Assembly (NCBI GenBank): GCA_008081045.1
Contig: VMDC01000001.1
Coordinates: 1-64,000, forward strand
Origin: Gammaproteobacteria bacterium
GTDB lineage: Bacteria > Pseudomonadota > Gammaproteobacteria > Pseudomonadales > Pseudohongiellaceae
Direction: 5' to 3'
Length of the DNA stretch: 64,000 bases
In this document: positions 20,256-22,645 of the stretch, one piece after another
Layout of the letters: every line of letters begins with the position of its first letter
Numbering within the stretch: the stretch's first letter is position 1
Notes under the pieces: model-generated
Databases searched by the model: none
Told to the model about the DNA's origin: nothing
Seen by the model: only the letters and a program-made list of their open reading frames with translations
Program-made: the position numbers and the translations under genes

Positions 20256-20469
20256 GATTTTACCTAGCGATGTTGGCTGCTTGCTGCGGTGTGAATTGGC
20301 GCTTAAGTAGGCATTCTACCGACTACAAGCTCATGGTGGGGCTTGGGCGGCGGCGCATTATAACGCATTGTGTGATCTCTTTCTGTCAATCGGGCATAAT
20401 GCCGGCTCGGGCCCGGATTGATCTGACGATCAATTAACCGCCAGCCACTTCATGATGCAAGGAGAATGT

Positions 20470-20748
20470 ATGACTACTGCAACAGCGCGCCACATTCTGG
20501 TGGACACAGAAGCTCAGTGCCTCGAGCTCAAAGAGAAGATTGAAAACGGTGAAGACTTTGCAGACATTGCCAGACAGTTCTCCAGCTGTCCCTCTAAAGC
20601 GCAGGGTGGAGATCTGGGTCAGTTCGGACCCGGGATGATGGTGAAAGAATTCGATGAAGTGGTGTTCAGCGCGGAAGTGAATTCGCTGCAGGGCCCGGTG
20701 AAAACCCAATTTGGCTATCACCTGCTGGAAGTGACCAGCCGCAGCTAG
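20470..20748 (+). CDS. ppiC: parvulin-type peptidyl-prolyl isomerase
   Basis: Single-domain cytoplasmic parvulin of 92 residues like E. coli PpiC, which speeds cis-trans isomerisation of proline bonds. Family blocks ARHILVDTEAQC, FADIARQFSSCPSK, GGDLGQFGPGMMVKEFDEVVF and KTQFGYHLLEV are all present. The start at 20470 has a strong AAGGAG element 6 bp upstream; the track start (20452) lies before it. The stop is 6 bp before the ArsC-Nudix fusion, so the two are probably translationally coupled. Confidence 0.94.
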   Translation: MTTATARHILVDTEAQCLELKEKIENGEDFADIARQFSSCPSKAQGGDLGQFGPGMMVKEFDEVVFSAEVNSLQGPVKTQFGYHLLEVTSRS

Positions 20749-20754
20749 TGCGCC

Positions 20755-21822
20755 GTGCACATCCTGTTTCTTTGTACGGGTAATTCCTGTCGATCACAAA
20801 TGGCAGAAGGCTGGGCACGTGCCTCAGCGGCGCAGCTTTCTGACCCGGAGGCTTTTTCCTTCTCCTCGGCCGGGCTGGAAGCACACGGCCTCAATCCCCG
20901 CGCCGTTGCTGTTATGGCCCAGAATGGCGTCGATATCAGCGCGCACACCTCTGACATTCTGACAGACGAGATGCTGGCCGCCGCCGATCTGGTTGTGTCG
21001 GTGTGCTCCCATGCGGATACCAACTGCCCTCTGTTGCCAGCAGGGACCGCAAAGCGTCACCTGCCTTTTACCGATCCGGCACAGGCAACGGGCCCGGAGG
21101 CAGATATCAATGCCTGCTTTGAGTCGGTATGCGGTGAGATTCGCGATGCCATGGCCGATCTGATTCACGAACTCAGTGCGAACCGGCAGATGTCTGTCAG
21201 ACAGGATTCAGATGAACCGTTGTTTCAACAAAGTGACGTGGAGATCCAGAGCCAGTCTGCCGTCTACCAGGGCTTTCTGAAAGTCGAAAAGCTGCACCTC
21301 AAGCATCAGTTGTTCGGGGGCGGCTGGAGTGAGCGTCTTGAGCGCGAGCTACTGATCAAGGAGCAGGCCGTCGGAGTGTTATTGCTCGACCCGGATACTG
21401 ACCGGCTGGTGATGGTGCGCCAGTTCAGAGCGGGGATGCTGTGGCAGCCCGAATCGCCCTGGCCGCTGGAACTGGTGGCCGGAATGGTGGACAAGGAAGA
21501 GACGCTGGAGGCCGTTGCCCTGAGAGAAACCCGGGAAGAAACCGGTCTGACGGCCAGCGGGCTGGTCAAAATCTGTGAATACTTCAACAGTCCGGGGGCC
21601 TCGACTGAAAAGGTCACGCTGTTCTGTGCGAAAGTCGACGCTGAGGCTGCCGGCGGCATTCATGGCCTGGAACAGGAGCATGAAGACATTAAAGTCGTTG
21701 TATTGCCGCGTGAGCAGGCGCTGCAAAGGGTAAGATCCGGCGAAATCAATAATGCCATGTCAGTGATTGCGCTGCAGTGGCTGGAACTCAATCAGAAAAC
21801 TCTCCAGAAAACATGGACCTAG
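20755..21822 (+). CDS. fusion of arsenate reductase (thioredoxin type) and ADP-ribose pyrophosphatase (NudF)
   Basis: One uninterrupted 355-codon frame with a GTG start encodes two enzymes. Residues 1-140 are an ArsC/low-molecular-weight phosphatase domain: P-loop CTGNSCRS (C7), plus C84 and C91 in CSHADTNCP, the three cysteines expected of thioredoxin-coupled arsenate reductase. Residues about 150-355 are a NudF-like ADP-ribose pyrophosphatase with a full Nudix box GX5EX7REXXEEXGX (about 243-265) and the C-terminal NAMSVIALQWLELN block of NudF. The linker (about 140-150) is Ser/Gln-rich. An internal ATG at 21190 lacks a good ribosome site but could give free NudF. The nudF-yqiB-cpdA order is conserved. 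Confidence 0.9.
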   Translation: MHILFLCTGNSCRSQMAEGWARASAAQLSDPEAFSFSSAGLEAHGLNPRAVAVMAQNGVDISAHTSDILTDEMLAAADLVVSVCSHADTNCPLLPAGTAKRHLPFTDPAQATGPEADINACFESVCGEIRDAMADLIHELSANRQMSVRQDSDEPLFQQSDVEIQSQSAVYQGFLKVEKLHLKHQLFGGGWSERLERELLIKEQAVGVLLLDPDTDRLVMVRQFRAGMLWQPESPWPLELVAGMVDKEETLEAVALRETREETGLTASGLVKICEYFNSPGASTEKVTLFCAKVDAEAAGGIHGLEQEHEDIKVVVLPREQALQRVRSGEINNAMSVIALQWLELNQKTLQKTWT

Positions 21823-21886: not shown

Positions 21887-22087
21887 GTGATGCTGTCGAC
21901 AGTTGTCGCCAAAGCCGCATGGTAGCTTTAGTCTGCCGTCCGTAGGCGGTGAATTACCCGAGGCTCTGGGTCCGGCAGGTCGCAGTCGCAGCACCGTGTC
22001 CGGCGGATCGCCCTGCTGAATGCCGGGAGCCGGCAAGTGTCGCCTAAGCCTGTCGGGAAAATCGTAAAAACGTATACCAGAGAATCA

Positions 22088-22645
22088 ATGCCAAAATCCG
22101 ATTACAGTGTCGATCTGATCAAGCAGATGGCCGAATGCGACGCCAATTACATTCGCTTGCTCAAGCTGGTGCCTGAAATGAGCGCCTACCTCGACCGCTC
22201 CTTTGCGGACATTGCCTCGACCGATGAGGGCCCGGGTCAGGCGATTTCAGACGAAGAGCCGGAGAAGGCGCTGGAAGGCCGGGTCACCCGCTTTTGTCTG
22301 GCAGACTATGATGACATGGACGGAGTGAATGAGCCGGTCACCGTAGAGATCAAGATCCTTGAGGCATTCAAATACACCAGCACTCTGGAAATTGTGCAGA
22401 AGCCCGAGTTAACAAAATGGATGACCAACCCGTCCATGCTGGTGCGCGTTTACCATGATGCCAGCACTGCGGAAGTGGTCTCCTATCAGGGCCATCGTAA
22501 GCTTAAGCCCCGTTATGCCAAGCCAAACCCCGAGATGTATCACTCGGATGAAAAAATGCAGGTTAATCAGTTTTTGGGCGAGTGGCTGACGCACTGCCTG
22601 AAATCCGGTATCAGTGAGAAGGTGCCAGAGCTCACCTATTCCTGA
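22088..22645 (+). CDS. yqiB: DUF1249 family protein (YqiB)
   Basis: 185-residue cytoplasmic protein of unknown function, always found beside cpdA and nudF. The YqiB core is clear: MAECDANYIRLLKLVPEM near the start, SMLVRVYHDASTAEVVSYQGHRKLKPRY, and DEKMQVNQFLGEWLTHCL at the end. An acidic insertion (about residues 40-70) makes it longer than the roughly 140-residue E. coli protein. I chose the ATG at 22088; the track start at 22037 adds 17 unsupported residues. cpdA follows after 20 bp. Confidence 0.9.
   Translation: MPKSDYSVDLIKQMAECDANYIRLLKLVPEMSAYLDRSFADIASTDEGPGQAISDEEPEKALEGRVTRFCLADYDDMDGVNEPVTVEIKILEAFKYTSTLEIVQKPELTKWMTNPSMLVRVYHDASTAEVVSYQGHRKLKPRYAKPNPEMYHSDEKMQVNQFLGEWLTHCLKSGISEKVPELTYS

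Follow-up and report, generated by a model that had tools for sequence, protein, structure and literature searches.

Arsenate reductases (ArsC) have been described in fusion with several other proteins, namely in ArsR-ArsC, in Acr3-ArsC of Mycobacterium, in AqpS-ArsC of Salinispora and in ArsN-ArsC (PMC6205960, PMC6514093). For ADP-ribose pyrophosphatases, fusions with NMN adenylyltransferase and with NMN deamidase are known (PMC3680494). Coupling of overlapping or very closely spaced genes by termination-reinitiation is also well documented (PMC10666635). Our literature search, which covered mainly papers outside subscription journals, returned no paper that apparently describes an ArsC-Nudix protein, so the pairing of ArsC with NudF looks new as a domain combination, while the kind of event is already known. 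We analysed such a gene in a gammaproteobacterium of the Pseudohongiellaceae, in the first 64,000 nucleotides of contig VMDC01000001.1 (hereafter the window). It is a true ArsC-NudF fusion, which probably arose when arsC lost its stop codon and has two autonomous enzymes in one chain, with ArsC carried along.

As the earlier note had proposed, arsC and nudF are joined in frame: positions 20755..21822 of the forward strand form a single reading frame of 355 amino acids with a GTG start, open throughout, with neither stop nor frameshift at the junction (Table 1). Pfam recognised LMWPc at residues 3-135 (71.5 bits) and NUDIX at residues 204-323 (55.1 bits), both above their gathering cut-offs. 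The ArsC active site comprises the P-loop CTGNSCRS (C7 to S14), the redox cysteines C84 and C91 and the pair D107-P108, and alignment with B. subtilis ArsC (1jl3) confirmed the three cysteines previously read from the sequence, with C7 as the nucleophile (C10, C82 and C89 in B. subtilis numbering). A PDB search with this half likewise retrieved ArsC structures, that of B. subtilis among them. The NCBIfam profile arsC_pI258_fam gave 142 bits across residues 3-135; for the equivalog TIGR02691 (thioredoxin-coupled ArsC) positions 1-128 of 129 were matched, but the 142.4 bits stay below the cut-off of 174.3, so the domain is homologous yet not a member by threshold. Other fused ArsC domains (see below) scored 145 bits (G137) and 135 bits (G086) with this profile.

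The second half carries the complete Nudix box (pattern G-x5-E-x7-RE-xx-EE-x-G) and the NudF-type C-terminus that the earlier note had described: TIGR00052 (nudix YffH/AdpP) reached 161.7 bits against a cut-off of 79.55, and PRK10729 (NudF, ADP-ribose diphosphatase) matched residues 153-355 with profile positions 7-209 of 210, although at 205 bits it remains under the equivalog threshold of 248. The best PDB matches of this half were the K. pneumoniae and E. coli ADP-ribose pyrophosphatases, which also headed the Foldseek matches of the predicted structure (E about 1e-28). A search for a separate nudF across the genome returned a single match, the window gene itself, so there is neither a separate nudF nor a separate thioredoxin-type arsC. 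AlphaFold2 modelled two confident domains with pLDDT below 50 at residues 145-154 and a pTM of 0.51; no fixed arrangement of ArsC relative to NudF is thus predicted.

Table 1. Features of the arsC-nudF locus, in window coordinates.
Feature	Position	Strand	Basis or remark
ppiC-type peptidyl-prolyl isomerase gene	20452..20748	+	same frame as arsC-nudF
ArsC (thioredoxin-type arsenate reductase) domain, residues 1-145	20755..21189	+	Pfam LMWPc, NCBIfam TIGR02691/PRK13530
CAG (Q145), at the arsC stop position (TAG/TAA/TGA) of seven congeners	21187..21189	+	junction alignment
Linker, residues ~145-158, predicted to be poorly ordered	21187..21228	+	pLDDT <50 at 145-154
ATG (M146), nudF start before the fusion, not preceded by a Shine-Dalgarno-like sequence	21190..21192	+	junction alignment
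NudF ADP-ribose pyrophosphatase domain, residues 153-355, Nudix box GMVDKEETLEAVALRETREETG	21211..21819	+	TIGR00052, PDB, Foldseek
DUF1249 (YqiB-like) gene, next in the conserved nudF locus	22037..22645	+	Pfam PF06853

The suggestion that the gene occupies the same locus as nudF of E. coli held as well, since the downstream gene order agrees: the neighbourhood nudF-yqiB-cpdA-yqiA-parE was recovered (DUF1249 by Pfam, the others by their ORF translations), and the window locus corresponds to that of nudF in E. coli, preceded here by ppiC-arsC. The genes further downstream, recognised from their translations, we take to be those for CpdA, YqiA and ParE. The ppiC TAG lies 6 nt upstream of the arsC GTG. 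At positions 20746-20755 ppiC, arsC and nudF share one frame, with this TAG, two codons before the GTG, as the sole separator, so that one further stop loss would yield a three-domain protein.

Among 84 congeneric genomes (a Pseudohongiella-like genus whose named relatives are uncultured Pseudohongiella-type Gammaproteobacteria such as AG-916-F08, MED581 and others), the whole frame runs without a stop in six, at 76-95% identity: G000, which is the window's genome, and G006, G067, G061, G064 and G010 (clade A). In G005 and G094 the frame is interrupted by contig ends, and G086 has its own, longer ArsC-NudF fusion. The two-domain architecture sought in other genomes was therefore found in five more clade-A species, in G086 and in G197, G137 and G169 of f47, a different family within the order. 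The bearers form a small uncultured group that is probably marine. In seven congeners (G002, G022, G080, G088, G024, G082 and G093) a stop codon directly abuts the in-frame nudF ATG, as in GTC TAG ATG, GAC TGA ATG or GCT TAA ATG. Looser arrangements also occur: the two genes overlap in different frames in G011, lie close together in G009, G087, G103 and G104, and are about 6 kb apart in G021, G029, G017 and G083. Wrecked arsC copies are truncated (G012), carry frameshifts or stops (G022, G066, G068) or are frameshifted (G062); thus, decay of the unfused gene in G022, G012, G066 and G068 takes the form of frameshifts, stops or truncation, and the fused copies of clade A show none of these.

Two further loci deserve mention. 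At L124 (G062, reverse strand) arsC is frameshifted in mid-gene, yet its last ~60 codons run stop-free and in frame into nudF; this may be a fourth case of stop loss, in an arsC that has decayed. At L149 (G249:C55, reverse strand 1067-2728) the frame of a TypA/BipA-like GTPase continues into the last 162 residues of a NudF that has 87% identity with the window's clade though the genome is assigned to another family; this is a probable assembly chimera or misbinned contig.

In the NudF tree the six fused species are monophyletic (100/100) and have the stop-ATG pair G002/G022 as their sister group, and G086 falls with another stop-ATG pair, G080/G088. AU tests on NudF rejected a single clade of clade A with G086 (p = 0.006) and of clade A with f47 (p = 0.0006). 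With ArsC alone, neither a shared origin of f47 and the genus (p = 0.14) nor clade A with G086 (p = 0.16) was rejected, and the ArsC tree shows the genus as its own clade (100/99). Judged from these phylogenies, there are at least three independent ArsC-NudF fusions (clade A, G086 and f47), separated by NudF only and not by ArsC. In evenly drawn samples from the order (392 genomes), the class (369) and the phylum (399), about 1,100 genomes together, no further ones were seen among the matches listed. Across 80 named loci, the Pseudohongiella-like ones and L043 were the only ones with nudF next to arsC. Three independent fusions at the least could point to some benefit; at a same-frame stop-ATG junction, however, a single base change suffices to fuse the two genes, and no functional pull is required to explain recurrence within the genus.

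Long NudF frames in a further family, f2, were considered as ArsC fusions and turned out to be fusions of a NadD-type nucleotidyltransferase with NudF. At L145:779-2017 (+), L146 and L147 NudF follows a NadD/NMN-adenylyltransferase-type nucleotidyltransferase (L145: PRK08887 136 bits and PRK10729 237 bits, NCBIfam), and at L148 (G043) the same two genes overlap unfused. This gives the order a second type of NudF fusion, one that makes functional sense, as NadM-Nudix does.

These arrangements suggest a simple path to the window gene. In the ancestor, ppiC, arsC and nudF would have been tightly packed and co-directional, with the arsC stop abutting a same-frame nudF ATG that had no ribosome-binding site, so NudF was probably translated by termination-reinitiation; an arrangement of this type, with the stop abutting the nudF ATG, is present in living relatives. 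A point change at the arsC stop would then have converted coupling into one polypeptide of about 39 kDa, and as the window triplet before the ATG is CAG, TAG to CAG is the simplest path. The ArsC part is predicted to act as an autonomous thioredoxin-dependent arsenate reductase, in which C7 would attack arsenate and C84 and C91 relay electrons, and the NudF part, behind a flexible linker, as an autonomous pyrophosphatase converting ADP-ribose to AMP and ribose 5-phosphate. Fusion would alter expression and linkage and leave the chemistry unchanged. Since NudF would now depend on the arsC start, the ArsC frame would have to stay open even if ArsC activity were no longer needed, and we infer that it is held by selection on NudF.

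The evolution of the ArsC half is consistent with such a passenger role. In the window, none of 43 positions invariant in unfused relatives has changed, and both catalytic sites are intact here as in G006, G067, G061, G086, G197 and G137. Nevertheless, two of the six clade-A species have lost a catalytic cysteine and kept the fusion (C7G in G064, C84S in G010), although both are incomplete drafts (83-84% complete) and G064 has Ns, so these single residue losses could be errors. All three cysteines and R13 are gone in G169 of f47, again with the fusion kept. NudF of each fused congener has at most one change at positions invariant in unfused relatives. On a fixed tree the ArsC/NudF branch-length ratio is 1.73 within the fused clade versus 0.88 elsewhere, a relative rate ratio of 1.95 (95% range 1.37-2.71; at or below 1 in 0 of 100 bootstraps), and pairwise dN ratios are 0.67-0.77 in close unfused pairs and 1.2-3.4 in fused pairs. 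ArsC of the fused clade is still under purifying selection (omega 0.14-0.25); by these rates, its constraint is relaxed, not gone. The G169 gene without the three catalytic cysteines lies at L142 (reverse strand 1530-2852), and elsewhere the same genome has both an unfused ArsC-like gene of the thioredoxin type and a glutaredoxin-type ArsC, one of these loci being G169:C60:5045-5422.

In the window's genome no Acr3 was found and no ArsM above cut-off; an ArsB Pfam hit belongs to a CitMHS/NhaD-like transporter (81 bits, where the ArsB cut-off requires 457), and a second LMW-PTP, considered as ArsC, is an ordinary LMW-PTP adjoining a kdsB-like gene. With NudF as the partner, not a protein of arsenic sensing or efflux, and a genome without Acr3, the gene does not fall among arsenic-resistance ArsC fusions. 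Glutaredoxin-type ArsC (TIGR00014) exceeded its cut-off in 11 of 11 unfused congeners examined and in none of seven fused ones (G000, 96% complete; G086, 99%; G006, G067, G061, G064 and G010). The naive Fisher p of 3e-5 for this difference takes no account of phylogeny, and the fused genomes stand for no more than two independent lineages. G000 has none, which leaves the fused ArsC as the one recognised arsenate reductase of the window's genome, in agreement with the intact ArsC site. G064 and G010, judging from their gene content, may be without any arsenate reductase.

The earlier note had imagined that the fusion links arsenate (or phosphotyrosine-like) chemistry with ADP-ribose. In this form, ArsC would couple arsenate reduction or the thioredoxin redox state to ADP-ribose hydrolysis in a bifunctional enzyme, for example as a redox switch or to remove toxic products when arsenate disturbs nucleotide metabolism. 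The repeated origin, the seven genomes with both sites intact and the missing glutaredoxin-type ArsC speak for it. Loss of the ArsC active site in several fused relatives, however, argues against linked chemistries, as do the faster ArsC evolution in the fused clade, the lack of a predicted fixed interface, the ease of recurrence within the genus at a same-frame stop-ATG junction and the empty literature search; the proposed link found no support and is improbable, and we regard a bifunctional enzyme as unlikely. To a like degree it is doubtful that the recurrent fusion is adaptive, with thioredoxin-type ArsC as the sole arsenate reductase after loss of the glutaredoxin type and the tie to NudF setting dosage or control. 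If true, ArsC dosage would be fixed to NAD/ADP-ribose turnover, or NudF would be under thioredoxin-responsive control.

Another alternative holds that free NudF is made from the ATG at 21190 (M146) besides the fusion, and that the physiological enzyme is still the stand-alone NudF. In the junction comparison (aligned DNA of 23 genomes) this ATG is retained in four of the six clade-A species, and relatives with an equally weak context presumably start NudF there after termination. It has become CTG in G061 and GCG in G010, and the latter has no in-frame ATG, GTG or TTG from residue 118 to 161. At 21190 the anti-Shine-Dalgarno energy amounts to -1.7 kcal/mol, weaker than the local median of -3.3, so the dominant ribosome site that the earlier note considered for this position is not seen. 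A Shine-Dalgarno-like sequence is also missing at the nudF ATG of most unfused stop-ATG relatives, so the weak context alone does not exclude free NudF, and some initiation at 21190 is possible in the window gene. Once the stop is lost, however, ribosomes no longer terminate there and cannot reinitiate. Most of the product should therefore be the fused chain, and we consider it quite unlikely that a stand-alone NudF is the physiological enzyme. That the ArsC half now serves NudF as a non-catalytic solubility, stability or binding module might explain why its length and frame are kept despite the cysteine losses in G064, G010 and G169, but neither the window protein nor its closest relatives have lost any active-site residue and G169 is extremely diverged, as drift would give, which makes this very unlikely. 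Finally, the earlier note had reasoned that the fusion would fall if homologues were two genes with a stop at the junction and sequencing error explained the open frame: the first part holds, with the stop exactly there in seven congeners, but error or a missed stop, conceivable in drafts from uncultured organisms, is ruled out for the clade and has a negligible probability, as six separately assembled species share the open junction with diverged in-frame linkers, G086 and f47 do so independently, and a 355-codon frame kept in six species excludes chance.

The preferred reading, stop loss between two autonomous enzymes, offers a natural series from abutting stop-ATG genes to a fused gene, with living intermediates and independent repeats. 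It makes a general idea testable: a dispensable enzyme can become locked into the genome when the stop at a translationally coupled junction is lost, since a needed enzyme encoded downstream then depends on its frame. A fused partner that loses its active site also cautions against deducing function from fusion ("Rosetta stone" logic). For arsenic biology, these are organisms with a fusion protein as their only recognised arsenate reductase and no recognised arsenite exporter.

Compared with known systems, the ArsC half shares with thioredoxin-coupled ArsC of the pI258/B. subtilis type (1jl3, 1ljl; TIGR02691, PRK13530) the P-loop CTGNSCRS, the DPA motif, the spacing of the three redox cysteines and a full-length alignment; it differs in its C-terminal NudF extension, in its score of 142 bits (<174) and in a genome without recognisable Acr3, ArsB or ArsM. 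The other half shares with NudF/AdpP (E. coli 1g0s, K. pneumoniae 9b1z; TIGR00052, PRK10729) the whole catalytic domain, the Nudix box and the locus, but 145 ArsC residues replace the free N-terminus and PRK10729 gives 205 rather than 248 bits. Like NadM-Nudix (cited in PMC3680494), the window gene joins an ADP-ribose pyrophosphatase to another enzyme; NadM, however, is metabolically tied to ADP-ribose recycling, whereas ArsC is not. With the ArsR-, Acr3-, AqpS- and ArsN-ArsC proteins it shares a small ArsC that has acquired an in-frame fusion partner repeatedly in evolution; in those the partner handles arsenic, whereas NudF is a Nudix hydrolase of NAD recycling, and some of the ArsC-NudF proteins have lost catalytic ArsC cysteines.
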